From Hemileia vastatrix (Eukaryota > Basidiomycota > Pucciniomycetes > Pucciniales > Zaghouaniaceae), in assembly GCA_030280995.1 (NCBI GenBank), contig JASXTE010000005.1:3631001-3695000 (forward strand): a DNA stretch of 64,000 bases, given 5' to 3'. Numbering within the stretch: position 1 is the stretch's first letter; each line of letters starts with the position of its first letter. The translations under genes and the position numbers were made by a program. Positions 1 to 40,935 of this stretch are shown piece after piece. A model generated the notes under the pieces. It saw only the letters and a program-made list of their open reading frames with translations. It ran no database searches and was not told where the DNA came from.

Positions 1-1887
1 TGGAAATGTTTATGAGGAATACTATATTAACTAAAGAAGACTTGCACCCTACTACTGTTCATCATAAAAGTGTCCACCAGAAGAATTCTCAAACTTGTGG
101 TTGACACCTTTGGCCTGGTCCAGCCATATGGGATCAATTCTGCATTAGGAAATGAGGATTTAATTTGGTCAATCAGGGTACTAGAATTAATTTTATATAG
201 ATAAAGTGTCCAACTAAATATTGGAAAAAAATCAGTTGAAAACTTCATTTAGTTTTTCAAAAAATCAAATTAAGTAAAATTTTATTCCTGATGATGCCCA
301 TTTTATCCAACACCTCTTCTGAGCCTTGGAAGTAGGCATTTAGCTTGAATTTTGAATTTCATATAAAGTCCCTATTATTCAACCTATTTCTTTTTATCCC
401 TTTTTTTCTTTTAGATATCAATTAATTTTATGTAAAACAAATCATTTTCATAATTTTTTACCTGTATTTAATAAAATTATTAAAGGTTTAACATCACCCT
501 GTAAGCATTTGGCACATGTTTTTTTGCTATACTAGTAAAAATAATAATATACTGGTAACAAAAAATTGATCAAATGATAAAATATTAATAAAACAGAAAG
601 ATTAAATACCAGTGGATATGTTTTAAGAAAATACCAGTTGCACTGAAGAAGAGCTGCACCCTAGATACTCACCATCAAAAAAGTGTCCAGCACAAGTTTG
701 GCCGAACTTGTGCTGGACACTTTTGGTCAGTTGCAGTCATATGAGATCAATTCTTGCTATGGCAATGATAAAAAGTTTTTGGATAAAAAACTTCACTAGA
801 AGTAGTTTTACATAGCCAAATTTTCTACCTAGATTTCATCCAAACCACAGGTGCACAATTTTTATCTTTGAAAAAAAGTCAATTTAGTACAATTTATCCC
901 TGATGGCTCTCATTTGCTTCAACACCTCTACTGGCCTTTGATAGTAGGAATATTACTTGGATTTCTTTTTTCATATTTGATCCCTTTAACTTAATTTTTT
1001 ATTCCTAATATTGCTTTTGGATATTAATTAATAATTTTTAAAATAAAATATTTTCATACTTTTATACATTTATTTAATAATATTATAAATGGCATAACAT
1101 CACCTGGTATGAATTTGGCACATGAGTATTTTCTATACTTATAAAATTAATAATATAATGGCGACCAAAAATTAATCAAATGATATTAATGAGTGAGGAA
1201 CAAATATAAAATACCAGTAGACATGTTTGTAAGAAATACTAGATGAACTGAAGAAAAATTCTACCCTAGCTACTCTCCATCATAAAAGTGTCCAGCACAA
1301 GTTTGGCCAAACTTGTGCTGGACACTTATGGTCAGGTGCAGTCAGATGGGAGCAATTCTATCTATGGAAATGAAGATAAATTTTTGATATAAAATTACAC
1401 TAGAAGTAGTTTGATATGGCAAAATTTTTATGCTGAAGTTTTGGTAAAGCTCAAGTTGATTTTTTTTTTATTTTTACAAAAAAGAAAATTTAGTGCAAAA
1501 TTAGCCCTGATTGTGATAATTTGATTCAACATCTCTTTTTTCTGTTTATGGCAGGAATTTAACTTGGATTTTAATTTTCATCTTTGATTTTTTTTTTTAC
1601 TTTACTCCTCTCATATTGCTTTTGGATAGAAGTTTATTTTTTGTAAAATAAATCATTTTCATATTTTTTTACCTTTATTTAATAATATTATAAAAGGTGT
1701 AACATCACCCAGTATTCATTTGGCACACAAGTTTTTGCTATACTGATAATATTAATAATATAATGGTGACAAAAAATTAATCAATTGATAAATATGAGTG
1801 AGGCACAAAGATTTAATAACAGTGGAAATTTTTATAAGAAATTTCAGATGATTAAAAATGACTTGCACCCTGGCTACTCTTCATGAT

Positions 1888-1933
1888 AAAAGTGTCCAGC
1901 ACAAGTTTGGCCAAACTTGTGCTGGACACTTTT
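1888..1933. repeat. 46-bp perfect palindrome, one per satellite unit
   Basis: The left arm starts AAAAGTGTCCAGCACAAG and the centre is TTTGGCCAAA with no loop. This copy is perfect over 46 bp. Near-perfect copies lie around 680-725, 1284-1327, 2498-2543 (worn), 3108-3152, 3716-3760, 4328-4374, 4938-4983, 5542-5587, 6154-6198, 6734-6778, 7339-7383, 7947-7992, 9677-9722 and 10257-10301; a very degenerate one is at 68-113. The ten central bases take three forms: TTTGGCCGAA, TTCGGCCAAA and TTTGGCCAAA. All derive from TTCGGCCGAA by CpG loss. The arms are better conserved than much of the flanking unit. Confidence 0.95.
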
Positions 1934-4900
1934 GGTTGCATGCCGTCAGACGCAATCAATTCTTTTTATGGAAATGAGACTGAATTATCACTCCATCATT
2001 GCACTGAAAGTAGTTTTATATAGACAAATTTTCCCCTGGAAGTTTGTCCAAACCTAAGGTAGACAATTTTTTCCTTTGGTAAAAAGTAAATTTGATCCAT
2101 GTTAATCTATGATGGTGCCCATTTTTTCTGAAGCCTCTACTGGCTCATGATAGCAGAAATTATACTTAATATCTTTATTTCATGTTTGATCTCTTTAATT
2201 TTAATCTTACCCTTTTATTTATCTTTAGCTTTTAAATATCAATTTTATTTTGGTAAAACTGATAACTTTCACATTTTTTTACATTTGTTATATTATATTA
2301 TTAAAGTTGTAAAATCATCCAGTGTACATTCATTACACATGTTTTTGCTATACAAAAAACATTAATAATATAATGGTGACTAAAAAATAATCAAATAATA
2401 AATATGGATGACACAGAAAGATCAAATACCCATAGAAATTTTTAAAATGAATATAAGATTAACTGAAGAAGACTTGCACCCTAGCTACTCTCCATCATAA
2501 AAGTGTCCAGCACAATTTCAGCTGAGCTTGTGCTGGATAATTTTGGTTGCATGCAGCCAGATGGGATAAATTTATTCAATGGAAGTTAAAATGAATTTTT
2601 GCTCAATCATTGCACAAGAAGTAGCTTTATACTGCTATACTATCCTCCTGATTTTTTGGAAAACCACAGGTGGACACTTTTATTAATTTTAAAAAAAAGA
2701 AAACATATTCCAAATCTAGAACTGGTGGTGCAAATTTGGTCTGAAAACTCAAATTATCTTTGATGGCAGAAATTTTATTTGAATGTTTAATTTCATATTT
2801 AATCACTTTTATTTTACTTTTTTATTCCTGTTTTTGCTTTCAAATATCAATTTATTAATTGTAAAACTAATACTTTACATATTTTTTTTACTTTTATTTA
2901 ATAAGATTATGAAAGATGTAGCATCTCCCAGTATACATTTGGCTTACAAGTTTTTTCAATACTAATAACATTAATATTTTAATGGTGAAAAACAATGAAT
3001 CAAATGATAAATATGAATGACACAGAAAGATCATATACAAGTGGATTTGTTTATAAGGAATACCTGATGAGCTGAAGAAGACCTGCACCCTAGATACTCA
3101 CCATCATAAAAGTGTCCAGCATAATTTGGCCGAACTTGTGCTGGACACTTTTGGTTGCATGCAGTCAGATGGGATAAATTTACTCTATGGAAATGAAAAT
3201 GACATTTTGCTCAATCATTGCACAATAAGTAGTTTGATATTGCCAAAATGTCCTCCTGATGATTTTTCAAAACTCATCAGGACACTTTCTTTGGTTTAAC
3301 AAAAAAGAAAATATAATGCAAGTTTAGCCCTGGTGGTGCACATTTAATCTAACACCTCTACTTGTTATTGATAGTGGGAATTTTCCTTAGATTTTTTTTT
3401 CTTATTTTATCCCTTTTATTTTACTTTTTTATTGCTAATATTGCTTTGGATATCAATTTTTAATTTTTAAAATAAATAATTTTCATACTCTTATACCTTT
3501 ATTTAATAATATATGATAAAAGGTGGAACACCACCTGGTATGCATTTTTCACACAAGTTATTACTATAGTAATAACGTTAATAATATAATGATTACAAAA
3601 AATTAATCAAATGGTAAATTTAAATGACACAGAAAGATCAAATTCCAGTGGAAATGTTTATAAGAAATCCCTTTTGATTTTAAGAAGATTTGTTGTATGC
3701 CTACTCTCAATTATAAATGTGTCCAGCACAAGTTTGGCCAAACTTGTGCTGGACACTTTTGGTTGCATGAAGTCATATGAGATAAATTCTCTCTATGGAA
3801 ATAAAAATGATATTTCACTCAATTATTGAAGTAAAGAATGTTTAATATTGTAAAATTGTCCCCTGGAAGTCTGTCCAAACCTCAGGTCAAAATTTGTTAG
3901 CTATACATAAAAGTAAGTTTAGACCAAGTCTTGACCTAGGGGTCCCCAACTGTCCCAACACCATTTCTGGCTCTTGATAGTAAAAATTTTACTTGTATTT
4001 TTTATTTCGTATTTGATCCCATTTGTTTTCATTTTACTTTACCATTACTCTTTTTAATTTTAAATATCAATTTATTTTTTTAAAAACTAAACATATTCAT
4101 ATTTTTTTAACTTTATATAATAATATTATTAAAGTTGTAACATCACCAATTTTGCATTTGGCATGCAGGTTTTTGCTATACTAGAAACATTAATAATATA
4201 TATGGTGACAAAAAATTAATTATAAGATAAATATGAATGATAAAAAAAAGTTAAAAACCCAATAGAAATGTGAAAAACAAAAAACTGTTGTACTGAGAAA
4301 CACTTCCACCCTAGCTACTCTCCATCATAAAAGTGTCCAGCACAAGTTCGGCCAAACTTGTGCTGGGTACTTTTGCTCAGGTGCAGTCAGATGGGATCAA
4401 CTTTCTCTGTGAAAATTAAATTAAAAAAATGCTAAATAATTAAATTAGAAGTAGTTTGGTGTGGCTGAATTATCCACCTTGAGTTTTTCCAAACCTCAGG
4501 TGAAAAATTTTTTATCTTTAAAAAAAATTAAATTTTATCAAATTTAGCCCTGATGGCACCTATTTGTTTCAACACCTCTACTGGCTCTTGAAGGCAGGAA
4601 TTTTTCTTGAATTTTTCTTTTTCATATTTGATCTCTTTTACTTTACTTTTTTATCACTCATGTTACATTTGGATATTAATTTATAATTTTGGAAAAGAAA
4701 TCATTTTCATATTTTTTTAACTTTTTTTAATAATATTATAAAAGGTTTAATATAACATGGCATGCAATTGGTGCACAAGTTTTTTCTATACTAATAAAAT
4801 TAATAATATTCTAATGACAAAAAAGTAATCAGATAATAAAATATGAATAACACAGAAAGATCAAATACCATTTGACATGTTTTAAAAAAATAACAGTTGC

Positions 4901-7900
4901 ACTGAAGAAGACCTGCACCCTAGCTACTCTCCATCATAAAAGTGTTTAGCACAAGTTCGGCCAAACTTGTGCTAGACACTTTTGGTCAGGTGCAGTCAGA
5001 TGGGATCAATTCTCTCTATGGCAATGAAAAAAATTATTTGATAAGAAACTTCACTAGATGTAGTTTGATATAGCTGAATTATCCACCTAGATTTCATCCA
5101 AACCACAGGTACACAATTTTTTATCTTTAAAAAACAATCAATTTAGTACAATTTATCCCTGATGGCTCTCATTTGCTTCAACATCTCTACTGGCCTTGAT
5201 ATTAGCAATAATACTTGGAGTTTGTTTTTCATATTTGATCACTTTAACTTAATTTTTTATTCCTCATATTGCTTTTGGATATCAATTAATAATTTTTAAA
5301 ATAAATTATTTTAATATTTTTATACATTTTTTTAATAATATTATAAAAGGTGTAACATCACTCAGTATGCATTTGGCACACGATTTTTTGCTATACTTAT
5401 ATAATTAATAATATAATTAAGACAAAAAATTAATTCAACAATATGTATGAGTGAGGCACAAAGATAAAATAACAGTGGACATGTTTGTAAGAACTACCAG
5501 ATGAACTGAAGAAAAATTCTACCCCAGCCGCTCTCCATCATAAAAGTGTCCAGCACAAGTTCGGCCAAACTTGTGCTGGACACTTTTAGTCACGTGCAGT
5601 CATATGGGATCAATTCTCTATATGGCAACAAAAAAACATTTTTTTATTAAACTTCACTGAAAGTAGTTTTGTTTAGCTGAATCATCCACCTGTTGTTCTT
5701 CCCAACCTCAGGTGTATAATTTTTTATCTTTAAAAAAAAGGTCACTTATTACAATTTAGCCCTGATGGCTCCCATTTTTTTCAACACTTCTACTGGCTCT
5801 TGAGAGCAAGAATTTTACTAGTATTTTGTTTTTTATAATTGATCTCTTTGAGATTAATTTTACCTTTTTATCCCTCATATTGCTTTTGTATATCAATTTA
5901 TTTTTTGTAAAACAAATCATTTTCATATTTTTTTACCTTTATTTAATAATATTATAAAAGGTGTAACATCACCCAGTATGCATTGGGCACACGAGTTTTT
6001 GCTATACTTATAATATTAATAATATAATGGTGACAATGAATTAATCAAATGATATATATGAGTGAGGTACAAAGATTAAGTACCAATGGACATGTTTATA
6101 AGAAATACCAGATTAACTGAAGAAAAATTCTACCCTAGCTACTCTCCGTCATAAATGTGTCCAGCACAAGTTCGGCCAAACTTGTGCTGGACACTTTTTG
6201 TCACATGCAGTCTGGTGTGATCAATTCTCTCTCAATCATTGAACTAGAAGTTTTTTGATATGGCTAAATGGTTCTGCTGAGGTTTTTTTAAACCTCAGAT
6301 TGGCACTTTTTTGTTTTTCAAAAAAGCAATTATAGTCCAAGTTTAGCCTCACTGGTGGACATTTTCCCCAACATGTCTACTTGCTCTTGATGGCAGTAAT
6401 TTTATTTTAATTTTTTATTTCATATTTGATTCCTTTAATTTTACCTTTTTATCCCTCATATTGCTTTTGTAAATCAATTTATTTTTTGTAAAACAAATCA
6501 TTTTCATATTTTTTTACCTTTATTTAATAATATTATAAAAGGTGTAACATCACCCGGTACACGTTGGGCACACGAGTTTTTGCTATACTTATAATATTAA
6601 AACATAATGGTGACAAAAAATCAATCAAAGGATAAATATGAGTGAGGCACAAATATCAAATACCATTTGACATGTTTTTAAAAAATGACAGTTGCACTGA
6701 AGAAGACCTGCACCCTAGCTACTCTCCATCATAAAAGTGTCCAGCACAAGTTCGGCCAAACTTGTGCTAGACACTTTTGGTCAGGTGCAGTCAGATGGGA
6801 TCAATTCTCTCTATGGCAATGAAAAAAATTATTTGATAAGAAACTTCACTAAATGTAGTTTGATATAGCTGAATTATCCACCTAGAGTTCATCCAAACCA
6901 CAGGTACACAATTTTTTATCTTTAAAAAACAATCAATTTAGTACAATTTATCCCTGATGGCTCTCATTTGCTTCAACATCTCTACTGGCCTTTGATATTA
7001 GCAATAATACTTGGAGTTAGTTTTTCATATTTGATCCCTTTAACTTAATTTTTTATTCCTCATATTGCTTTTAGATATCAATTAATAATTTTTAAAATAA
7101 ATTATTTTAATATTTTTATACATTTTTTTAATAATATTATAAAAGGTGTAACATCACTCAGTATGCATTTGGAACACAATTTTTTGCTATACTTATATAA
7201 TTAATAATATAATTAATACAAAAAATTAATCAAACAATATGTATGAGTGAGGCACAAAGATAAAATACCAGTAGAAATGTTTGTAAGAAATACCAGATGA
7301 ACTGAAGAAAAATTCTACCCCAGCCGCTCTCCATCATAGAAGTGTCCAGCACTAGTTTGGCCAAATTTGTGCTGGACACTTTTGGTCATGTGCAGTCAGA
7401 TGGGATCAATTCTCTGTATGGCAACAAAAAAACTTTTTTATCAAATTTCACTAGAAGTAGTTTGGTTTAGCTGATCATCCACCTGCTGTTCTTCCCAATA
7501 TCAGGTGTATAATTTTTTATCTTTAAAGAAAAGGTCACTTATTACAATTAAGCCCTGATGGCTCCCATTTGCTTTAACACCTCTACTCGCTCTTGATAGC
7601 AGGAATTTTATCAGTATTTTTTTCATATTTGAACTCTTTGACTTTTATTTTACTCTTTTATTCCTCTTTTTACTTTTAAATTTCTATTTATTTTTTGTAA
7701 AACTAATCCTTTCCATATTTTTTTACGTCTATTTTAAAAAATTATTGAAGGTATAACTTCACATGGTATGCATTTGGCACACAAGTTTTTGCTATACTAA
7801 TAACATTAATAATATAATGGTGATAAAATATTAATCGGATGATAAATATGAAAGATACAGACTGATCAAATACCAGTAGACATGTTTATGAGAAATACAA

Positions 7901-8000
7901 GATGAAGGAACTGAAGAAAATTTTCACCCAAGCTACTCTCCATCATAAAAGTGTCCAGCACAAGTTTGGCCGAACTTGTGCTGGACACTTTTAGTCACGT

Positions 8001-9116
8001 TGTGGTAGCCTAAAGTTTAGTATGACACCTAAGTACCTAAATGGAGTTATTACGGCGTGCAAGATTGGCGTTATTATTTTATAAAAGGCTTTTATTGAAT
8101 TTATTTGAGTCTTAAATATAAAGAAATTTGGTTAAAAACAAATGCCTACATGAAATCAATTTATTTTACGGAGAAAACTTATTTTGCGGTCTGAAAAGAT
8201 TATAAGTATCAAGTCAAGTCACTCAAGAACCTTGGGAAATTTTTCCAGAATTTTTACTATTTTTCTTATATTTTTAAAAGAATTTTAAAGATTTATAGAA
8301 ATATTTACGTTTTCAGAAATTACTTAACTTTAATAAATTTTCACGGGGTAATTAGAGCTGCGCAGACTACGAAAATTAGTTTGGAATATAAAGGGGAAGT
8401 AGCTCTATTATGTGTAATTTTTCTAGACTTTTTATTATAGTTTTTAAGGTTCTAATTGAGTCGGGAAGTCTGGACGGACTCCGTTTGGACTCCGTACGGA
8501 CTCCGCTTTGACTCCGTACGGGCTCCGGATTGACTCTGGGAGAGCTCTGGAGGGGAAAACTTAGGCACGTGACTAGGAATACTTAAGTGCCTCTCAAACT
8601 CGAAATTGAGGGGGGGATAAATCATACAGCTTAATCATTGACCACCACGGTCTCATTTTTTATTACTCAACAAATTAAAATAAATTGTAATACCCTTATA
8701 ACTTTATATTTTATATATAACATTTTATAAATACTACTCAACAATTTAAATCACACTTCATACAGGGTATCTTTAGAAAGGTCTTCATCACTGGGACTTG
8801 ATTATTGCTGTCTCATAAAACTCAAATTATAATAAAAACATAAAAGTCAATCTTTACAGATCTTTCACTGGTACACCTTAATTGTTGTTATCAGTATTTC
8901 TTTTCTCAACAGCCACGATCATTTAATCTCAATAAGCGTTATATATTTTAGAGTTTCATTATTTTTATCAATCAGATCCAAGTAGATTGGTTAGCTTAGT
9001 GATTTAGAATTCCCATTTTGTTATTTTATTGGAAGGACGGGGTTTTCAGCTAAATCCACATATCTCCTCCGGATTCTGCTTACAGCAAGGCGACTGTAAG
9101 AGTTTACCTTACCATA
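8001..9116 (+). mobile_element. Solo LTR of Ty3 family B
   Basis: Begins TGTGGTAGCCTAAAG and ends TTACCTTACCATA, matching along its length the two LTRs of the full element at 29277-40935. It sits inside a satellite unit and is flanked by the 4-bp duplication ACGT (7997-8000 and 9117-9120); the satellite unit resumes without loss. It contains the family's CGG/CCG-rich stretch (about 8461-8530). No internal region is present, so this is the product of LTR-LTR recombination. It differs from the 29277-40935 LTRs at scattered positions, so it is an older insertion. Confidence 0.93.
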
Positions 9117-10794
9117 ACGTGCATTCAGATGGGATCAATTCTCTATATGGCAAAAAAAAACATTTTTTTATTAAACTTCACTACAAGTAGTTTTGTTTAG
9201 CTGAATCATCCACCTGTTGTTCTTCCCAACCTCAGGTGTATAATTTTTTATCTTTAAAAAAAAGGTCACTTATTACAATTTAGCCCTGATGGCTCCCATT
9301 TGTTTCAACACTTCTACTGGCTCTTGAGAGCAAGAATTTTACTAGAATTTTGTTTTTCATAATTGATCTCTTTGAGATTAATTTTACCTTTTTATCCCTC
9401 ATATTTCTTTTGTATATCAATTTATTTTTTGTAAAACAAATCATTTTCATATTTTTTTACCTTTGTTTAATAATATTATAAAAGGTGTAACATCACCCGG
9501 TATGCGTTGGGCACGCGAGTTTTTGCTATACTTATAATATTAATAATATAATGGTGACAATAAATTAATCAAATGATATATTTGAGTGAGGCACAAAGAT
9601 CAAGTACCAATGGACATGTTTATAAGAAATACCAGATTAACTGAAGAAAAATTCTACCCTAGCTACTCTCCGTCATAAATGTGTCCAGCACAAGTTTGGC
9701 CGAACTTGTGCTGGACACTTTTTGTCACATGCAGTCTGGTGTGATCAATTCTCTCTCAATCATTGAACTAGAAGTTGTTTGATATGGCTAAATGGTTCTG
9801 CTGAAGTTTTTTTAAACCTCAGATTGGCACTTTTTTGTTTTTCAAAAAAGCAAATATAGTCCAAGTTTAGCCTCACTGGTGGACATTTGCCCCAACATGT
9901 CTAATTGCTCTTGATGGCAGTAATTTTATTTTAATTTTTTATTTCATATTTGATTCCTTTAATTTTACCTTTTTATCCCTCATATTGCTTTTGTATATCA
10001 ATTTATTTTTTGTAAAACAAATCATTTTCATATTTTTTTACCTTTATTTAATAATATTATAAAAGGTGTAACATCACCCGGTATGCGTTGGGCACATGAG
10101 TTTTTGCTATACTTATAATATTAAAACATAATGGTGACAAAAAATCAATCAAATGATAAATATGAGTGAGGCACAAAGATCAAATACCAGTGGACATGTT
10201 TATAAGAAATACCAGATGAACTGAAGAAAAATTCCACCCTAGCTAACCTCCATCATAAAAGTGTCCAGCACAAGTTCGGCCAAACTTGTGCTGGAAACTT
10301 TTGGTCACATGCAGTCTGATGTGATCAAATCTCTCTATTGCAATGAAAATGAATTTTTCTTCAATAATTGCACTAGAAGTTGTTTGATATGGCAAAATTG
10401 TCATCCTGAAGTTTTTTTAAACCTCAGATTGGCACTTTTTTGTTTTTCAAAAAAGCAATTATAGTCCAAGTTTAGCCTCACTGGTGGACATTTTCCCCAA
10501 CATGTCTACTTGCTCTTGATGGCAGTAATTTTATTTTAATTTTTTATTTCATATTTGATCCCTTTAATTTTACCTTTTTATCCCTCATATTGCTTTTGGA
10601 TATCAATTTATTTTTTGTAAAACAAATCATTTTCATATTTTTTTACCTTTATTTAATAATATTATAAAAGGATTAACATCACCCGGTATGCATTTGGCAC
10701 ACAAGGTTTTGCTATACTTATAATATTAATAACATAATGGTGACAAAAATCAATCAAATGATAAATATGAGTGAGGCACAAAGGTCAAATACCA

Positions 10795-29276: not shown

Positions 29277-30419
29277 TGTGGTAGCCTAAAGTTTAGTACG
29301 GCACCTAAATATGTAAATGGAGTTATTACGGCGTGCAAGATTGGCGTTATTATTTTTTAAAGGGTTTTATTTAATTTATTTGAGTTTTAAATATGAAGAA
29401 ATTGGTCACGAGCGAATGCCTACACGAAAACAATTTATTTTACGGAGAAAACTTATTTTTACGGTCTGAAAAATTTATAAGTATTAAGTCGAGTCACTCA
29501 AGAACCTTGGGAAATTTTCCCAGAATTTTTACTATTTTTCTTATATTTTTAAATGAATTTTAAAGTTTTATAGGAATATTTACGTTTTCAAAAATTACTT
29601 AACTTTGATGAATTTTCACGGGGTAATTAGAGCTGCGCAGACTACGAAAATTAGTTTGGTAGGTAAAGGGGAAGTAGCTCTATTATGTGTAATTTTTCTA
29701 GATTTTTTATTATGGTTTTAAGGTTCTAAATTGAGTCCGGAAGTCCGGACGGACTCCGTTTCGACTCCGTACGGACTACGTATGGACTCCGCTTTGACTC
29801 CGTACGGACTCCGTACGGGCTCCGGATTGACTCTGGAAGAGCTCTGGAGGGAAAAACTTAGGCACGTGACTAGGAATACTTAAGCGCTTCTCAAACTCGA
29901 AATTGAGAAGGGGGGACACATCATACAGCTTAATCATTGACCACCACAGTCTCATTTTTTATTACTCAACAAATTAAAATAACTTGTAATACCCTTATAA
30001 CATTATTATTTTTTTTACATAACATCTTAGAAATACAATTCAACAGTTTAAATAACACTTCATACAGGGTATCTTTAGAAAGGTCTTCGTCGCTGGGACT
30101 TGATTATTGCTGTCTCATATAAATTTAAAATATTATAAAAACATAAAAGTCAATCTTTACAGATCTTTCACTGGTACACCTTAATTGTTGTTATCAGTAT
30201 TTCTTTCTCAACAGCCACTTTCATTAAATCTCAATAAGCGTTAATTATTTTAGAGTTTCATTATTTTTATCAATCAGATTCAAGTAGATTGGTTAGCTTA
30301 GTGATTTAGAATTCCCATTTTGTTATTTTTATTGGAAGGACGGGGTTTTCAGCTAAATCCACATATCTCCTCCGGATTCTTCTTACAGCAAGGCGACTGT
30401 AAGAGTTTACCTTACCATA
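29277..30419 (+). mobile_element. 5' LTR of element B
   Basis: TGTGGTAGCC to TTACCATA, 1143 bp, about 20 bp longer than the 3' LTR because of extra units in the GACTCCGTACG minisatellite. Termini form an imperfect inverted repeat (TGTGGTA / TACCATA). Confidence 0.92.
29734..29826 (+). repeat. CGG/CCG-rich minisatellite in LTR B
   Basis: Repeated GACTCCGTACG words with many CCG and CGG triplets in both orientations, standing out in AT-rich surroundings. Shorter versions occur in the 3' LTR (about 40273-40343) and the solo LTR (about 8461-8530). CpG sites survive here despite CpG loss elsewhere in the window. Confidence 0.8.
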
Positions 30420-30594: not shown

Positions 30595-31776
30595 ATGTCT
30601 TCTACTAGTGGAACTGCTGTGTTGGCTGCTGGTGTACCTTTTAGGGCATCAGTGAGGATTGTATCTTGGGTTGGGCCCAAGTTTTCTGGAGATGATTTAG
30701 AAGGATTTTTACCTAGGTATGAAACTGCAGCTGCAATTGATGGTGCTTTACCTTTGGATATGGTGAAGCAGATTAGGTTCTTTATTTTGGACAGAGAGGT
30801 GGAAAAGGAGGTTATTTCTATGGATGGTTATAAAGATCAAAATTGGAGAAAGCTCAAGATGGAAATGGGAAAAAGGTGGCCAAAAGTTTATTCATTGGAG
30901 GATCTAAAGGATATAGTTAGGAAATGGGAATCAAAAGGTGGTGTAACATCTCTGCATCAGTATCATCAGTTTATGGTTGAATTTCAGGTGGTTCTGGATT
31001 ATTTGTTGGAGTATGAAATTTTATTTCATGATAATGCATCAAAGTATGTTTTTTGGGATGCTATGGGGGAAAAGGTTAAGAAAGATGTTTTGATGGTGCT
31101 TATTAATGGGAATTTAATGAAGGATCTCCCAGATGGAGAAACTAGGATTCCTGGTATGGAGGTGCTAAAGAAGGCTATTTTGGAACATCTGGATACTCAT
31201 AACTCTGTTGATTTGGACTCTGGAGAAGACACTGAGGTCGCTCAAGAGATAGAAGAGGATGGTGTAAAAGAACTAGTTACTTATGAAATTCCGGATTCAG
31301 CCATTCCTGAAGATTTTGTCCAGCCTGAAGATATTATTTTTGTTGACTCTTCTGTTTGGAAAGAAGAGATTTTTGAAGATGAAGATATTGTTGTCATTAA
31401 TGACAAAATTTTGAATGATGGGGATAATTTTTTGTTGAATGATTTGAAATCGGATTTAGAGGATTTTTTGCCTCAGGTTTTGTCTTCAGAAGCAGAGACT
31501 GTCTGCAATGAAGATATGGATATGGTGGATTTGTTACAATCTCAGGGAGAGATTGTTAAGGAGGATATGGTTTTCCCTGCACTAATAAAGAGTGTAGTGG
31601 CATTTGATAATAGAGTGCATAAATTGGATGCACTCATGTTTTGGAAAAGGGTTGTTTATTTTTTATGTCCAATGGTAGGACAAATTATGGGGGTTTATTT
31701 TTGGGTTTTATGGAATCGGTGGATAAGCCCTTGGGGCAAAATTATGGATTATCTCCAGGGGATATCAAGAATTTAA
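30595..31776 (+). CDS. Element B Gag-like protein
   Basis: An intact 393-residue frame from ATG 30595. The N-terminal half (WVGPKFSGDDLEGFLPRYE; MVKQIRFFILDREVEKEV; RWPKVYSLEDLKDIV) matches the capsid-type region of basidiomycete Ty3 Gag. The C-terminal half is strongly acidic and has no CCHC knuckle; it ends with a hydrophobic, aromatic stretch (about residues 345-370, WKRVVYFLCPMVGQIMGVYF). Two copies of a GCCTGCAAGAGGC hairpin precede the ATG at 30490 and 30539. The stop is followed three bases later by the first hairpin-tail motif. Confidence 0.85.
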   Translation: MSSTSGTAVLAAGVPFRASVRIVSWVGPKFSGDDLEGFLPRYETAAAIDGALPLDMVKQIRFFILDREVEKEVISMDGYKDQNWRKLKMEMGKRWPKVYSLEDLKDIVRKWESKGGVTSLHQYHQFMVEFQVVLDYLLEYEILFHDNASKYVFWDAMGEKVKKDVLMVLINGNLMKDLPDGETRIPGMEVLKKAILEHLDTHNSVDLDSGEDTEVAQEIEEDGVKELVTYEIPDSAIPEDFVQPEDIIFVDSSVWKEEIFEDEDIVVINDKILNDGDNFLLNDLKSDLEDFLPQVLSSEAETVCNEDMDMVDLLQSQGEIVKEDMVFPALIKSVVAFDNRVHKLDALMFWKRVVYFLCPMVGQIMGVYFWVLWNRWISPWGKIMDYLQGISRI

Positions 31777-31867
31777 TTCCTCCGAAATGAGGATAAACTA
31801 CCTAAACTCGGCTGAAATTTTTTTTATCCTTATGTCTTCAATTTATTCAGGATTCAAATTATTATGA

Positions 31868-34800
31868 ATGCCCTCATTTTTTGGGGTAGCAGGGGCTGAT
31901 CGCTTTAATGTTGTAATCTCTCCTCAGGATGAGATCTCGGATTGCAATAGGTCAGCTCACTTGGAGATAATTCAAGTGGATTCTCAATTATTTTCTGTTA
32001 ATATTACTTTGGAGTGCAAATACGTTTTGGACTTTTTTATATGTTTATTGGATTTACCCGGTTTTTCTATTAAATTTAAAAATGGTAAAAAAGGCAAAAT
32101 GGGCCAAATTAGGTTGGATAAAAATTGGAAGGGTATGTTTTATGACCTCCAGCAAGAGGGTAAACTGCAAAAATTACATCAAAACTCGATTAAAAATCTC
32201 AGTATAAGTAAAACACAAAAAAATAACTTATGTGAAAATGTTATTCGGGACCTCCAGCAAGAGGTTAAACTGCAATTATCTCCTTCTATTTTGGACCTCC
32301 AGCAAGAGGGTAAACTGCAAATATCACATCAAAATTCGATTAAAAATCTTAGTATAATTAAAACTCAAAAAAATAATTTTTGTGAAAATTCAATTCCGGG
32401 CCTCCAGCAAGAGGTTAAACTGCCGACTTTCTTTACGGGTGATTTACTGTTGGATAAGGGAAGCAAAGGTGTTGGAAAATCTGTTTATAAATTAGACGAG
32501 GGAAAGGAGAAAAGGGTAAAATTTAAAAATGAAATAAAATATTTTTCTAATTTTTCTTATTCCGATTCTGGCGATGAAGAAGATTCATTTGATGAAAGTT
32601 TTAATGGCGATACAAAAGAAAATGTTTTACCTCAAGTTAATTTAGATGTGGACGCAGCCAAATATAAGAAGGTAGCAAATAAAGTTCGACCTATTAATGA
32701 ACCGCTACCTGCTGAATTAAATCCACCTTTGAGAAGACCAAGGTTATCAAGAGATCCTTATGAAAGTCCCTTGGTAAAGAATCCGCCTGAATTTTCTGAG
32801 AAGTCAAGAATCACTTTTGAGAGACTGGGTGTTGTTAATTTTGGACCTGATGGTTGGTTGTCTGGAGAAGAGAAGAAGTTGTTGTTGGATGTGATGGTCA
32901 AGCGAGAGAAGGCCATTGCTTTTGTAGAAGAGGAGAGGGGTGTGTTGAAGCATTCCTATGGGGAGCCTTACAAGATTCCTGTGGTATGTCATGAACCCTG
33001 GCAGCAGAAACCAATTCCTATTCCGGCTGCATTGAAAGAAGCCTATATTGAAGTTGTCAAAGAACGGATACGCACTGGACTGTATGAGCAATCAACGTCA
33101 AGTTATTCTAGTCCTGTATTTTGTATCAAGAAACCGAATGGCAAGCTTAGAGTTGTTCATGATCTTAGGGAATTAAATAGGGTTACAATAAAGGATGCTG
33201 GGATACCGCCTAGTGCTGAGGAGTTTGTTGAAGTGTTTGCAGGGAGAGTGTGTTATGGTTTGGGAGATATTATGGGTGGATATGATGAGAGAGAGTTACA
33301 TCCGGACTCAAGGCCTCTCACTACATTCGATACGCCACTTGGACGTTTACAGTTAACAAGATTACCTCAAGGAGCAACAAATTCGGTTGCAGTTTATCAA
33401 GCTCAGATGGCTTGGATCCTTCAAGATGAAATTCCACAATATGCTGGAATCTTTATAGATGATGGAGGAATTAAGGGACCAACAACCGACTATGATAACC
33501 AGGTGTTGGAAGAGAATCCCGGGATACGCAAATTCATTTGGGAGTTTGCAATTACTTTAGAAAGAATCTTGTTTCGAATTGAAGAGGCTGGTTTAACTAT
33601 TTCAGGTTCAAAATTTTCATTTTGTGTGCCAGCCTTAGAAATATTAGGCCATGTGGTATGTAGAGAGGGTAGGATTATGTCCAGGAAGAAAGTTAACAAA
33701 ATTCAGTCCTGGCCAAGACCCAAGAATACAACCGAAGTTAGAGGGTTTTTAGGCGTTTGCGTATATGTTAGAATGTTTATTAAGGACTTTTCTTCATTGG
33801 CAGCTCCATTGAGACGGTTGACGAGAAAGGATGCAGACTGGGAGTGGGATGAAGAGTGTGAGAAGGCGTTTGTGAAGTTGAAGGAGGTTGTAGGGAAGGA
33901 TTTAGTCCTGCACAAGTTGGATTATGGAAAAGGAGCTGGCAGAATTTATTTAGCAGTTGATTCAAGTCAGGTTGCAGCTGGGGCGGTTTTGTCTCAGATG
34001 GATAAAGCTGGTTACATCAGGCCAGTTAGGTATGAATCTGTAGTATTTACTGAGGTCGAATCAAGATATTCTCAACCAAAATTGGAATTATGTGGTGTGG
34101 CGAAAATACTGAAGAAACTTCAGCATATTTTGTGGGGGCAACATTTTGAGTTGCAAGTGGATGCAAAATCGTTAATCCAGATGATTAATTCCCCAAGTTT
34201 ACCGAACGCACCCATGACAAGATGGGTAGCTTTTATTCAACATTTTTCATTTGATTTAGTTCATAAGCCTGGCAAGACTTTTACTATGCCAGATGGTTTA
34301 TCAAGAAGACCACCCACTGAAGAAGATTCAGACTCAGAAGAGTTCGATGAAGATATACCTATTATCAAAGCCAGCACTAAAGGAGCTGAAGACTTTCCAT
34401 ACCTCCCCCATGAGGTTAAACTGGCAGGACTATTATGTTTAGATTATGGTGTTGATGACCTCCACCAAGAGGATAAACTGGAAAATAGTTTTTATGTTAA
34501 TAAAGGTGTAGATAAATTCGGCAGAGAGGAGGTAGAAGAAGATGTGGTGTATGTAGAGGAAGATGGATTGGTAGTGTGGGATAGTAGTAAATTAAGGAAT
34601 GGTGTATATGTTGGAGAATTAGAGAATTTAAATAAAAAGGTGGATAAAGAGAAAGAGGTATTTTCGAATACGGTTTACAAAGGATCCAAAGGTTCAGAAG
34701 AAAAACGTCGACATAGCTCGATTAAAAATTTATTTAGGGGTCAACTATTATTGGCTCATTCATGTGCAGGTGATATTGGTGATAGAGAAGTCCCTATTGA

Positions 34801-36127
34801 TGTTATATTAATCGATTTTCAAGATGAAGTCTGGGGTCAGACTGGTTTTTATTTTTTGTTAGTCAAATATTTGTTGACTTTAGAGAGGCCAGAAGATTGT
34901 GTAGACGATGAATGGGTGGCTATCAAGAGGAAGTCATCTACGTTTTACCTATCTGGTCGACGTTTAATGAGGAGGAGGTATCCAAATCCTCAAGTAGTTA
35001 TAACTCAACAGAAGGGGCAAGAATTAGTTTTGAAATCACTGCATGAAGATCTCGGGCATAGAGGCGTTGGAGAAACGTTTAGAAGAATTTCTGATCGATT
35101 TTGGTGGCCTGGCATGAAGATGGCTGTTAAACAGTGGGTTCAGTCATGCGAAGAATGTCAAAGACAAAGTTATTTAAGGCCAAAAGAACCTGGACGCGCG
35201 ACCGGTGAATATACGCTCTTTGGAAGAGTTAGTTTAGATGCCGTTCATATAAAAGAGGGACGGTATAAATATTTAATTGTGGCCAGAGATGATTTATCTG
35301 GTTGGGTAGAGGCAGCGCCTCTTATTAATTTAACTGCCAAAAATGTGGCAGAATTTTTTTTGAATAATTGGGTATATAGGTATGGGGTGATGAAGTTGGT
35401 GACGGTAGATGGAGGTCCTGAATTTGGGACAGAGTTTAAAGAGGCCGTATTGAAAGTTGGATCAAAGGTTAGGGTAGCAACCCCATATTATCCTGAAGCT
35501 GAAGGAATGGTTGAAAGAGGGCATCAAGTTATTAAGGATGCTTTAGTTAAAATGTGTGGGACAAGTGCCGAAAAGTGGAGGCACTATTTACCTTTAGTTT
35601 TATTTGCTGATCGAATCACTGCCAAAAGGACGACCGGATTTTCACCTTATGAACTTGTTTTTGGACAGAAAGCAGTTTTACCGGTTGATTTAGAAGCTGA
35701 ATCATATCTTGGAGTTGACTGGGACACGGTCAAAACTACTGAAGATTTATTGTGTGCAAGAATGATGCAGCTAGAAAAGAAAGAAGAATATTTAGAAAAG
35801 GCATATTCGCAGATGATGAAGATCCGAAATCAATCAGTTAGATATTGGGATGAGCGGTTGGCACATCGATTAAGGAAACCTTTGAACCCAGGAGATATGG
35901 TCCTGGTGTATAATAGGAGTTTGTAAAGTCAGTGGGGAAAGATGTTTGCAGATAGGTGGAATGGACCGTATAAAATCAAGGAGCAAGTTTCCGGCGGTTC
36001 ATATGTGCTAGAAGAGTTGGATGGAGTAGTATTAAAGAAGAGGGTAGCGGCCGATCAAGTGAAACGGTTCTATCCTAGAGGCACCAGGAGTGCCGAAGTC
36101 TTCCTCCGCAATGAGGATAAACTATGA
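31868..36127 (+). CDS. Element B Pol (RT, RNase H, integrase), one internal stop
   Basis: The frame starts at ATG 31868, directly after an in-frame TGA, and is in the +1 frame relative to gag with a 91-nt gap. A TAA at 35924-35926 interrupts an otherwise continuous frame that ends at 36127. Residues about 100-190 hold DLQQEGKLQ-type repeats. RT has LPQGATNSVAVYQ and the catalytic FIDD (about residue 529); RNase H has YLAVDSSQVAAGA; integrase has the HHCC finger (LHEDLGHRG ... SCEECQRQ) and D, D, E residues in SLDAVH, VTVDGGPEF and GMVERGH. I see no DSG/DTG protease motif. The last residues after the stop (WNGPYKIKEQ, RVAADQVKRF) are the usual integrase C-terminal region. Confidence 0.9.
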
Positions 36128-36365
36128 CATTTATGAAATTATATGGACGAACTCCAAAATGAGGATAAACTACAATTTTAATGACTTTTATTAAATTTAT
36201 TCCTCCGCAATGAGGATAAACTATGATATCAATGAAACTTTATGGATTCCTCCGCAATGAGGATAAACTATGATATTAATGAAACTTTATGGATACCTCC
36301 GCAACGAGGATAAACTATGATATTGACAATATTTTATGATGACCTCCGCAACGAGGATAAACTAT

Positions 36366-37480
36366 CTTTTTTTTTATCAAAATACTTTACTATCGTTACA
36401 CTGTATATGGTCAACGAAACTGTGATGAAACTTAACGAAATGCAAGAAGGCCTTCTTTGAAATTTTCAAAAACTTAAAATTCTTAAAATATGGGTGAAGA
36501 TAGTGTTGGGAAATTTTTAAAAATTTATTGGAAGAAGTGTTTACAGGGGAACCTTCTTAATTTAATATTGGCAAGTGTGGGGGTAATTGATGGGCTGGCT
36601 GCTCTATACACAATTGCCCCATAATGTTCGTTTCCAAAATTTTCCCTGTTTCTAGTTGAATCCTGGCTTTGTCTTTTAATTATAGGAAGTCCACTAAGAC
36701 TATAAACTGGAACGAATCAAGAGACACCGCTCTAACGCCGGATTCAAGATTTTTTTATTTTGTTTTTGATTTTTTATGTTAGATTGTGATTTCTTTTCTT
36801 TAATATATATTATGAATTAATGTAAAGGTGATGCTCACTGGTGGTCTCTAATCATTTTTATAAATTGGAGGGAGCCCACCCAGTGATCATCATTATAAAA
36901 ATTATCTTCTAAAAACTTTCATTTATTTTCTTTTCTTTTCAATTTCTCAAAATTGTGTAACCACATCAAGTTGCACTTGGATGTGGGTATGATGTCGAGG
37001 GTACGGCTCATCAAATGGCCGGGGGGCATCTTTTAAAAATTTTATTTTGATAATTCATTTTTTTATTACCTTTTTTATCTTTCTTTAAAATTAAATTTTA
37101 ACTTTTATTTCAAAACTATCTTTTCTAAAATCTTTTATTTTAAATTAAAAAAAAAAAAACAAAACAAAAAAAAAAAAAAAACAAACAAATTTAAATTTAA
37201 AAAAAAAAAAATAATATAAATAAAAATTAAATTAAATTAAAATAAAAATAAAAATAATAATAAAAAATAAAAATAAAAATAAAATAAATAATAAATAATA
37301 AAATAATGAAATAAAAAAAAAAAAATTAAAATTAAAATTAATTAATTAAATCAAAATTATTATTATATTTCTTAGTTTTGTTTTTTTTAGTTTTCATTCT
37401 TTAGTTTTATTCATTTAGTTTAGACAGGAAACAGGGTCTAGGGAAACTCAATACCTATGGGATTTTACTTCAAGACAGCT
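36366..37480 (+). other. Element B non-coding region with inverted repeats and A-rich tract
   Basis: No coding frame. It holds an imperfect inverted repeat (GTGATGCTCACTGGTGG near 36829 against CCACCCAGTGATCATCA near 36888), a second hairpin near 36961-36986 (CACATCAAGT / ACTTGGATGTG), and a 230-bp run of A-rich simple sequence (37140-37370). One hairpin-tail motif (36688) lies within. Confidence 0.65.
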
Positions 37481-38407
37481 GTTAGTCCTCCAAGACTTTA
37501 AACTGGCTACTGTTCAAGACGTTCTTTAAGGTTTATTTTATACGTATTTTGGATCTTCTAGTCCTCCAAGACGTTAAACTGGCTACTTTTCAAGACGTTC
37601 TTTAAGGTTTTTTATACCTATTTTGGATCTGTTAGTCCTCCAAGACTTTAAACTGGCTTCTGTTCAAGACGTTCTTTAAGGTTTTTATACATATTTTGGA
37701 TCTTTTAGTCCTCCAAGACTTTAAACTGGCTACTGTTCAAGACTTTCCTTAAGGTTTTATACAAATTTTGGAGCTGTTAGTCCTCCAAGACTTTAAACTG
37801 GCTAATTTTCAAGACGGTCATTAAAGATTTTATATTGGAGCTGTTAGTCCTTCAAGACTTTAAACTGAAATTAAAAGACGTTCAAGATTCTATGGATATT
37901 TTCGGAGACGGTTTTCTTTTTATATAAATCAAATGTTAGGTCCACCAAGACCTTAAACTGGACTGTTATCAAGCTGTTGGGTCCACCATGACCTTAAACT
38001 GGATTTCTTATTGATTAAATGTTTGGTCCACCATGACTTTAAACTGGTAGTTCATTCATTGTTTAGTCCACTATGACTTTAAACTGGAAAATTAATATCT
38101 GCAGGATAATTCAACATTCATTGGACCACTATGGCCTTATACTGGATTACTTGTCGATCAAATGTTTGGTCCACTATGATATTAAACTGGATTATCAAAT
38201 TTATTCAATCTTTGGTCAAGCCTAGGCCTTACTTAGGAATATATCAAGATATTTATGCACTTAAACGATCTTTGGTCCACCAAGACCATAAACTGGCAAT
38301 CGATTATATGTTTGGTCCACCAAGACTTTAAACTGGAATGTCAATCTTGTTTGGATAACTCAATTCAATCTTTTAATTTATCACTGTCCACTAAGACTCT
38401 AAACTGG

Positions 38408-38997
38408 TTATTCAATTATTTCTGGAATTGGGTGTTAATAAGCTTTAGGAGGCTAAAATTTTAGGTGGTAATGATGCTAAAGAAAGCATAATGGTTAATT
38501 AGGTGAAATTTGTGGCGCTTTAACATGGTCTAAAGTTAATATTATTATTGGAAGCCTGGCAAAAGTATTTTATGGGTTTGCTGTATAGCAAAGTTTGAAA
38601 ATTGTGATGAAGGAATCAGAAGTTAGGATGGTAGTTGGATTTTAGGGAATGATTTTTTTTAGTGCCTCATAGTTAGGCCATTTTTTTTTGGTGTGAAGCT
38701 TGGAGGACCTTATGGCGAGATTGGAATCATAGAATTCGGCTCAGTGGGGGGCCCTATGAGGTTGGAATCAGGAGTATTCGGCTCATAGGAAGATCCACTC
38801 TCTCAATGCTGTGACAAGAAGGAAGACTGGTATATGGGAGTCTGAAGGGATTCAAACCTTGCTCTCAGTAGTGGAATCATCACAAGATTTATATTATTTT
38901 ATTTTATGTTATATCAGGCCAGAGAAGAAAGAAAACATCATTTATGTTGAAAGTTTAAGAAGACCAAGCAAAAACAAAATTTTATCAAGTTACACTG
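38408..38997 (+). other. Element B non-coding stretch before the antisense gene
   Basis: No credible frame on either strand. A partly repeated text around GGAATCATAGAATTCGGCTC (38728) and GGAATCAGGAGTATTCGGCTC (38765) is seen. It may hold the 3' untranslated region of the antisense gene at 38998-39690. Confidence 0.5.
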
Positions 38998-39690
38998 TTA
39001 GAAAAGATAATTTCTTTGAAATTGTTCAACATCATTATCAAAGCTTTGCATTAAAATTCTTCTTTTCATGAGGTCTTCATGGTTATTAGCTGGAGTTTCT
39101 TGAAAATAGGCCAGCATTTTTCGTTTCAACTCATTATTAAAGTCAAGAAAAAGATAGCGATGAAAATTTGGGTAATGATTGATATAGTCCGTCTTCACTC
39201 TACCAACATCATCAGTGTTGGTTATTTCGACAGCTAGAAGTTCAAATATGTTATTAAGTCATAGGTTTAGTCAATTTTGATTAAAAGTTTTTTTTAGTAA
39301 GATAAATAGGGTCTTACATTTAGAGCCAGGAAACATAGTCTCAGCAAAGTTAGTTGGGGGAACTGGCGCTATAGGATTAGGATCTTGTGAAGGCAAAATT
39401 AGGCCGGGATCCGTTGATGAAGATTGAACTTTTGAAGCTGTTTTTGATCTTATTCGTTTTAAGAAGACAGGAATTTTGGATCGCTTTTTAGAAGTTGAGG
39501 GATCAGGGAGAGCTGCTGGTCCTAAATATACGTTTGTTTTAGAAGGAACTATTGGCCGGTTGCATTTGACTTTTTTCACACATAATAAGTCGCAAGCTGT
39601 TCTGCCAGGAAGATTAGGGTTGGACATTAAACAAGGTACCTGGTATCGAGCGCAGAGTTCACATGGAGCGACAAGTTCTTTGGAAGACAT
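38998..39690 (-). CDS. Antisense Zn2Cys6-like gene of element B
   Basis: Antisense to gag-pol, between pol and the 3' LTR, with its ATG 124 bp from the LTR edge. Exon 1 is 39690-39318, exon 2 is 39233-38998. The 84-nt intron has donor GTAAGA, acceptor TTCTAG and a CTAAAC branch-like text; the join keeps frame and gives 202 residues without stops. Residues about 10-44 hold six cysteines, PCELCARYQVPC then TACDLLCVKKVKCN, spacing CX2CX6CX12CX3CX5C, one step from the fungal Zn(II)2Cys6 consensus. A basic stretch (KKRSKIPVFLKRIRSK) follows, then a Pro/Ser linker and a charged helical C terminus. A DNA-binding role is inference; a retroelement-captured regulator is the favoured reading. Confidence 0.7.
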
Positions 39691-39813: not shown

Positions 39814-40935
39814 TGTGGTAGCCTAAAGTTTAGTATGGCACCTAAATATGTAAATGGAGTTATTACGGCGTGCAAGATTGGCGTTATTATTTTTTTAAAG
39901 GGTTTTATTTAATTTATTTGAGTTTTAAATATGAAGAAATTGGTCACGAGCGAATGCCTACACGAAAACAATTTATTTTACGGAGAAAACTTATTTTTAC
40001 GAACTGAAAAATTTATAAGTATTAAGTCGAGTCACTCAAGAACCTTGGGAAATTTTCCCAGAATTTTTACTATTTTTCTTATATTTTTAAATGAATTTTA
40101 AAGTTTTATAGGAATATTTACGTTTTCAAAAATTACTTAACTTTGATGAATTTTCACAGGGTAATTAGAGCTGCGCAGACTACGAAAATTAGTTTGGTAG
40201 GTAAAGGGGAAGTAGCTCTATTATGTGTAATTTTTCTAGATTTTTTATTATGGTTTTAAGGTTCTAAATTGAGTCCGGAAGTCCGGACGGACTCCGTTTC
40301 GACTCCGTACGGACTCCGCTTTGACTCCGTACGGGCTCCGGATTGACTCTGGAAGAGCTCTGGAGGGAAAAACTTAGGCACGTGACTAGGAATACTTAAG
40401 CGCTTCTCAAACTCGAAATTGAGAAGGGGGGACACATCATACAGCTTAATCATTGACCACCACAGTCTCATTTTTTATTACTCAACAAATTAAAATAACT
40501 TGTAATACCCTTATAACATTATTATTTTTTTTACATAACATCTTAGAAATACAATTCAACAGTTTAAATAAAACTTCATACAGGGTATCTTTAGAAAGGT
40601 CTTCGTCGCTGGGACTTGATTATTGCTGTCTCATATAAATTTAAAATATTATAAAAACATAAAAGTCAATCTTTACAGATCTTTCACTGGTACACCTTAA
40701 TTGTTGTTATCAGTATTTCTTTCTCAACAGCCACTTTCATTAAATCTCAATAAGCGTTAATTATTTTAGAGTTTCATTATTTTTATCAATCAGATTCAAG
40801 TAGATTGGTTAGCTTAGTGATTTAGAATTCCCATTTTGTTATTTTTATTGGAAGGACGGAGTTTTCAGCTAAATCCACATATCTCCTCCGGATTCTGCTT
40901 ACAGCAAGGCGACTGTAAGAGTTTACCTTACCATA
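39814..40935 (+). mobile_element. 3' LTR of element B
   Basis: TGTGGTAGCC to TTACCATA, 1122 bp, nearly identical to the 5' LTR. Differences seen include one shorter minisatellite and about seven base changes. It is followed by CCAT, the second copy of the target duplication. Read in antisense it lies just upstream of the antisense gene. Confidence 0.93.

Follow-up and report, generated by a model that had tools for sequence, protein, structure and literature searches.

RNA localisation and packaging of the yeast retrotransposon Ty3 rely on untranslated regions (UTRs) or on POL, and the sequences involved are left undefined in the excerpted text of two accounts (PMC4974528, PMC11381356). The same text reports that Ty1 Gag binds a pseudoknot, and foamy viruses have packaging sites, CAS and PES, within pol (excerpted text of PMC3705302). 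Within these excerpts, no reiterated short motif is described among the packaging determinants of either foamy viruses or Ty3/Ty1 (PMC3705302, PMC4974528, PMC11381356). Plant Gypsy elements of the Retand type carry family-specific tandem repeats between pol and the 3' long terminal repeat (LTR), and the text describing them uses neither the word hairpin nor the term secondary structure. The subject here is a 23-nt motif that recurs in a Ty3/Gypsy LTR retrotransposon, element B, found in a 64000-nt stretch of the rust Hemileia vastatrix (contig JASXTE010000005.1, positions 3631001 to 3695000; hereafter the window). The motif lies in pol and in the 3' non-coding region, locations comparable to those of the foamy virus and yeast requirements cited above and, unlike in Retand-type repeats, one 23-nt structured core is common to different repeat units and families.

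Compact polerovirus pseudoknots of the beet western yellows virus type have a 2-nt loop 1, a 3-bp stem 2 and one junction base, and some plant RNA viruses have several 3' UTR pseudoknots in a row. The motif resembles the polerovirus H-type pseudoknots in its short stem 1 and in an A-rich loop predicted to cross that stem, the polerovirus frameshift pseudoknots having a minor-groove triplex (excerpt of PMC7618472). Like the upstream pseudoknot domain of plant RNA viruses it occurs in 3' UTR sequence, but it is also present in pol, has one shared sequence core and is hosted by a retrotransposon. Searches of one open-access library for dispersed packaging hairpins or pseudoknots of LTR elements, 3' tandem repeats, rust Ty3 elements and tandem pseudoknots listed no comparable series.

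Distribution and predicted fold of the motif

A sequence-only reading of the window had noted about 29 hairpin-tail motifs from 31779 to 38407, and this count stood, as 29 copies of the 23-nt motif were found, all on the + (sense) strand, with starts from 31779 to 38385 and the last end at 38407. A strict form (four standard pairs, a 6-nt loop, a 1-nt spacer and exact TAAACT) was matched 24 times within these limits; 200 first-order Markov simulations gave 0.09 matches on average and never more than 2. The single strict match elsewhere in the window (53754, + strand) has an unrelated loop and is consistent with chance. A covariance model, trained on an alignment that included 22 window copies, recovered 28 copies at E <= 8e-4 when run on both strands of the whole window, with the next match at E 4.6; the copy missed (38123) has the tail TATACT. 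Analysis of 31500-38600 with Rfam gave nothing above the gathering score and one weak match (E 0.26, 21.9 bits versus a gathering score of 42). The copies are arranged as follows.

31779..31801, + strand: one copy of the hairpin-only class, directly 3' of the gag-like open reading frame (ORF)
32146..32423, + strand: four copies (32146, 32251, 32296, 32401) in the linker preceding reverse transcriptase (RT); loop CAGCAA, tail TGC
34402..34481, + strand: two copies (34402, 34459) in the RNase H-integrase linker; loops CCCCAT and CACCAA, tail TGG
36103..36365, + strand: six hairpin-only copies (36103, 36151, 36202, 36249, 36296, 36343) in a 47-bp tandem array at the pol end
36688..36710, + strand: one copy, common to families B, B', C and D
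37484..37868, + strand: six copies (37484, 37560, 37634, 37707, 37779, 37846) in a 73-bp tandem array, the last with loop CTTCAA and tail TGA
37939..38407, + strand: nine copies (37939, 37980, 38025, 38065, 38123, 38168, 38274, 38314, 38385), with stems GGTC/GACC, GGTC/GACT, AGTC/GACT and variants

Of the 29 copies, 23 are outside the six pol-internal sites, and all but one of these 23 are found at the end of pol or beyond it. Tandem arrays with repeat lengths of ~47, 73 and 150 bp hold many of the copies, so that the window copies are not independent.

The layout is that of a compact H-type pseudoknot, with a 4-bp stem 1 (NNUC/GANN), a 2-nt loop 1 (CN), a 3-bp stem 2 (NYA/UGN), a 1-nt junction and a 6-nt A-rich loop 2 (N-UAAAC). 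In stem 2, which is complete in 22 of the 29 window copies, loop bases 3-5 are complementary to tail bases 6-8 (NYA with UGN), and loop base 3 changes together with tail base 8 as G-C, C-G or U-A. The sequence-only reading had described a hairpin with a constant tail; both are present, but the second stem had been overlooked, and the covariation of loop base 3 with tail base 8 amends its statement that loop and tail stay similar. Its proposal of selection on structure was supported for the sense strand, whereas cruciform DNA, its other option, is disfavoured as loop-tail pairing is natural for single-stranded RNA.

The pairing survey covered 192 distinct copies, taken from 17 other sequences besides the window and picked by TC......GA and exact TAAACT with the outer stem pairs, the loop and the tail end free; this selection fixes stem pairs 3-4 and the tail core by definition and excludes window copy 38123. 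Stem pair 2 was able to form in 190 copies, C-G and G-C both being common, and stem pair 1 in 164, so that the paired stem changes reported earlier hold for the outer two pairs. They do not extend to the fifth pair, supposed to be A-T or T-A, which was standard in 63 of the 192 copies with T.T commonest (57). The main stems were CCTC/GAGG (70 copies), AGTC/GACT (66), GGTC/GACC (15), GGTC/GACT (10) and the unpaired ACTC/GAGG (10), and no chimera stem (CTC/GAC or GTC/GAG) was found among the 192. Tail G7 is present in 153 copies, and in 140 of them loop base 3 and tail base 8 formed a standard pair, the loop-tail states being CCA-TGG (62), CTA-TGG (32), GCA-TGC (25), TCA-TGA (17) and a few others. 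When corrected mutual information was calculated for all column pairs in 65 distinct G7 sequences, stem pair 2 ranked first and loop 3-tail 8 second.

Comparison with shuffles and slid partners used an alignment drawn from 9 of 18 sources, which after removal of exact duplicates has 63 rows, 61 of them counted as distinct. For the whole pseudoknot 88.5% of cells were paired, versus 72.1% in shuffles and 19.2-38.5% with slid partners, and the covariation score was 0.353 versus 0.132 in shuffles. Stem 2 alone gave 82.0% paired, versus 69.7% (shuffles) and 8.2-29.5% (slid), with a score of 0.274 versus 0.142. It is fairly well supported that most copies are a small structured RNA, which would fold as a compact H-type pseudoknot.

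A number of observations weigh against this fold. In seven of the 29 window copies (31779 and 36103-36343) stem 2 is missing and just the hairpin and tail are present. Stem 1 by itself is weak (+1.6 to -3.5 kcal/mol), and loop 3-tail 8 is unpaired in 13 of the 153 G7 copies, ten of these being CCA-TGA, a combination observed in arrays of the C-type elements described below. Two of the five shuffle measures, double-change pairs (3 versus 4.0) and further pair types (10 versus 10.7), were not above shuffles, and the same was true of stem 2 alone (1 versus 2.0 and 5 versus 5.9). Ancestry was addressed using a custom-written tree-based null (60 simulations of 89 distinct 25-mers; not R-scape), a hard test because the tree was built from the same 25 nt. 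The covariation proposed in the sequence-only reading withstood this correction at stem pair 2, which exceeded all 60 nulls, and at no other pair singly, as loop 3-tail 8 was reached by 11 of the 60 nulls and stem pair 1 by 37. Few compensatory changes are proven independent.

Copies in pol and in related elements

The six pol copies share one frame and read L-x-x-E-x-K-L, those before RT translating as DLQQE(G/V)KL and GLQQEVKL and those in the RNase H-integrase linker as YLPHEVKL and DLHQEDKL. The coding copies keep rare codons, since pol has just 10 CTC and 13 CTG codons and 6 of each kind fall within motifs. A conserved peptide (DLQQEGKL) was considered as the selected feature and rejected, given the 23 copies away from coding sites. 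As the non-coding copies have the same letters, it is the nucleic acid, not the peptide, that is common to all copies. Short CTCGATTAAAAAT-like repeats adjoin coding copies in pol (32176, 32336 and 34717; SIKNL peptides).

Two Puccinia coronata proteins (P0007 and P0013) have L-x-x-E-x-K-L at three places in the linker between protease and RT (PR-RT linker), which hints, from protein alone, that the motif may occur in other rusts. The looser peptide pattern is also present in at least nine other proteins of 120, in some within conserved pol sequence. When the P0007 linker was used as query, it matched only P0007 itself and P0013, no relatives of the motif-bearing linker were found in the protein database, and one pattern scan and two protein scans of viral contigs found no relatives. 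A lone match in a bacterial metagenome-assembled genome (L001) was taken as chance. Another repeated peptide (KVS...C..., SKTLPCAT-like) is also found in the PR-RT linker of P0007 and P0013 and may be a second repeat, at the level of either RNA or peptide.

The genome searched (747.6 Mb, 791 contigs) contains 83,590 occurrences of TAAACTGG on both strands, versus 23,386 for the reversed word, and 20 stretches were taken from the first 100 TAAACTGG places listed. The motif series was found in Ty3 families B, B', C and D and is not peculiar to one element; the presence of the motifs in other family copies, which the sequence-only reading had set as a test, was thus confirmed. The carriers are B elements L010, L012, L013 and L014 (with part of a further B copy in L005), the diverged B' element L011, C-type L015-L019 and D-type L020-L021, the D-type being poorest with 4 and 2 copies in the scan plus some weaker ones in a second scan. 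Eight stretches (L022-L029) gave chance-level matches only, and none of 13 isolated TAAACTGG sites on contig C2 had the hairpin.

Copies occupy matching places across families, namely the PR-RT linker, the RNase H-integrase linker, the pol stop, a position a few hundred bases on, and farther 3'. Copy number varies among elements, as does site occupancy, with no copy observed before RT in L015 and L020. At three orthologous sites compared between families, identity was 0.73-1.00 in the motif and 0.27-0.89 in the flanks in 21 of 22 comparisons, the remaining one scoring 0 where the aligner slipped. In B', C and D the pol-end hairpin begins with the A of an in-frame TGA, and its A.G mismatch arises because the first base belongs to TGA. 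In ten upstream pieces covering LTR, gag and protease, true copies were found solely 3' of protease (L035, L037 and L039, and L036 on the other strand). Three weak upstream matches, in L034 near the primer binding site (3 pairs), L035 (3) and L037 (4), were judged to be chance; those in L035 and L037 are AT-rich, and all three were missing from the second scan.

A second conserved hairpin lies among the motif copies.

36580..36620, + strand: 10-bp long hairpin GGGGTAATTG...CAATTGCCCC in the 3' non-coding region, also present in B', C and D

At one pair of the long hairpin, 8 of 16 aligned copies have C-G and 7 have U-A, and this site is the sole double change among 14 predicted pairs. C-type pieces have one to three copies of it and, in L015-L017, a short motif follows each of the first two.

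The window copy of element B

The LTRs and the pol order RT-RNase H-integrase identify element B as a Ty3/Gypsy LTR retrotransposon, with the following features.

29277..30418, + strand: 5' LTR, from BLASTN alignment ends; exact borders inferred
30595..31776, + strand: Gag-like ORF of 393 aa, resembling the capsid region of relatives
31868..35926, + strand: pol ORF with RT, RNase H and integrase
39814..40935, + strand: 3' LTR, from BLASTN alignment ends; borders approximate

The LTRs share 97.4% identity (BLASTN, 1144 columns; 7 mismatches, 3 gap openings), and a sequence like a primer binding site, TGGCGCCCAACG, directly follows the 5' LTR. The closest database matches to pol have 60-77% identity, several being named Puccinia striiformis or P. 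coronata. Element B appears to be inserted within the pol of another Ty3 element, the RT part of which stops at 29360 and the RNase H-integrase part of which restarts at 40961. An antisense ORF (39271-39690; 139 aa, several cysteines) lies beyond the motif series and before the 3' LTR. Elsewhere in the window, at 500-10700, a stretch resembling GGCACACGAGTTTTTGCTATACT is repeated with a spacing of ~580-1200 bases or multiples.

Neither a CCHC knuckle nor a protease motif was found in the gag-like ORF of the window copy, and 30822 to 31864 has no DNA similarity to L030/L031, which carry both. An origin of element B in a lineage without zinc knuckle and protease was rejected, as L030-L033 and L038 (contig C2) have both. 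All 40 places scored with a query spanning the junction (31640-31960), one of them the window itself, match it full-length at 97-100%; they come from 2028 first-look candidates. From these comparisons, the window copy is an amplified derivative with a replaced gag/protease segment. This derivative without CCHC and protease motifs retains the motif series and also pol, and a second derivative copy has 11 motifs within 1 kb. In the 30822-31864 segment, the C-terminal part of the Gag-like ORF looks hydrophobic.

Possible functions

The explanation favoured here, held tentatively, is that the motif copies may be cis-acting genomic-RNA sites for Gag or Pol that jointly serve packaging. Loop 2 would lie along the groove of stem 1. 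In one clade of fungal Ty3 elements the motif recurs along the genomic RNA, both in 3' non-coding sequence and in pol linkers that tolerate extra residues. The copies would be bound in cis by Gag or Pol of the element, and many weak sites would jointly select and gather the genomic RNA for packaging. This reading draws on the sense-strand series, its conservation at orthologous places, the pairing statistics, the rare codons of the coding copies, the retention of the series in the amplified derivative, and the yeast Ty3 and Ty1 findings cited above. More speculatively, a fungal Ty3 clade might label its genomic RNA with a set of nearly identical mini-pseudoknots, some 10 to 30 in number, that Gag or Pol reads as a multivalent address. 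The set would be kept by compensatory changes, fitted into pol linkers and carried by perhaps thousands of copies in one genome.

Other facts sit uneasily with a role in packaging. Retroviral packaging signals are mostly at the 5' end, and the LTR, gag and protease stretches scanned in the ten upstream pieces contained no true motif copy, i.e. none at the 5' end. For the Ty1 pseudoknot, a role in encapsidation could not be demonstrated, according to the excerpt of PMC4974528. The amplification of the derivative is no proof of cis function because its pol ORF is retained.

It is possible, if rather unlikely, that host factors act through the pseudoknots in translation, stability or export, as in some plant RNA virus 3' UTRs. 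The predominance of copies at or after the pol end and the long hairpin with its C-G/U-A exchange standing among them are consistent with this, and eEF1A-binding 3' UTR pseudoknot domains have been described (excerpt of PMC8518580), but six copies lie within pol coding sequence, where ribosomes would melt them. Binding of a protein to a hairpin with a single-stranded tail and no pseudoknot, the loop-tail match stemming from the ancestry of a few copy types, is improbable. Although seven window copies retain the hairpin and tail without stem 2 and 11 of the 60 tree-based nulls reach loop 3-tail 8, three complementary states occur in both coding and non-coding copies, loop base 2 varies independently, and slid partners pair far less.

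Selfish or neutral spread, in which a short unit was multiplied by tandem duplication and template switching and the likeness is by descent, would account for the many copies in tandem arrays and the unequal copy number among elements. It is nevertheless quite improbable, as 21 of 22 comparisons at orthologous sites show greater likeness in the 23 nt than in the flanks, and stems have been swapped with pairing preserved. Duplex DNA sites recognised by a protein of the element or the host, as an insulator-like series, would fit the single orientation and fixed core of all window copies, but are very unlikely given that the stem and loop-tail changes preserve a complementarity unneeded for duplex binding. 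Stimulation of -1 ribosomal frameshifting, suggested by a layout like that of the compact polerovirus pseudoknots, can hardly be the function, since most of the 29 copies in element B are non-coding and no slippery XXXYYYN heptamer was found within 22 nt upstream of the eight copies tested (31779, 36103 and the six pol copies). Poleroviruses have one copy, placed after a slippery site.

In the excerpted accounts (PMC4974528, PMC11381356), the packaging sequences of Ty3-type genomic RNA are imprecisely defined. The motif series, kept at matching places in related elements, suggests an RNA that carries docking sites at many points. With a reiterated, sequence-defined 23-nt RNA element from an abundant family, Ty3 packaging would become directly testable. 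The series would also offer structural biology a natural set of compact pseudoknots and would illustrate how a retrotransposon accommodates RNA signals in coding linkers.

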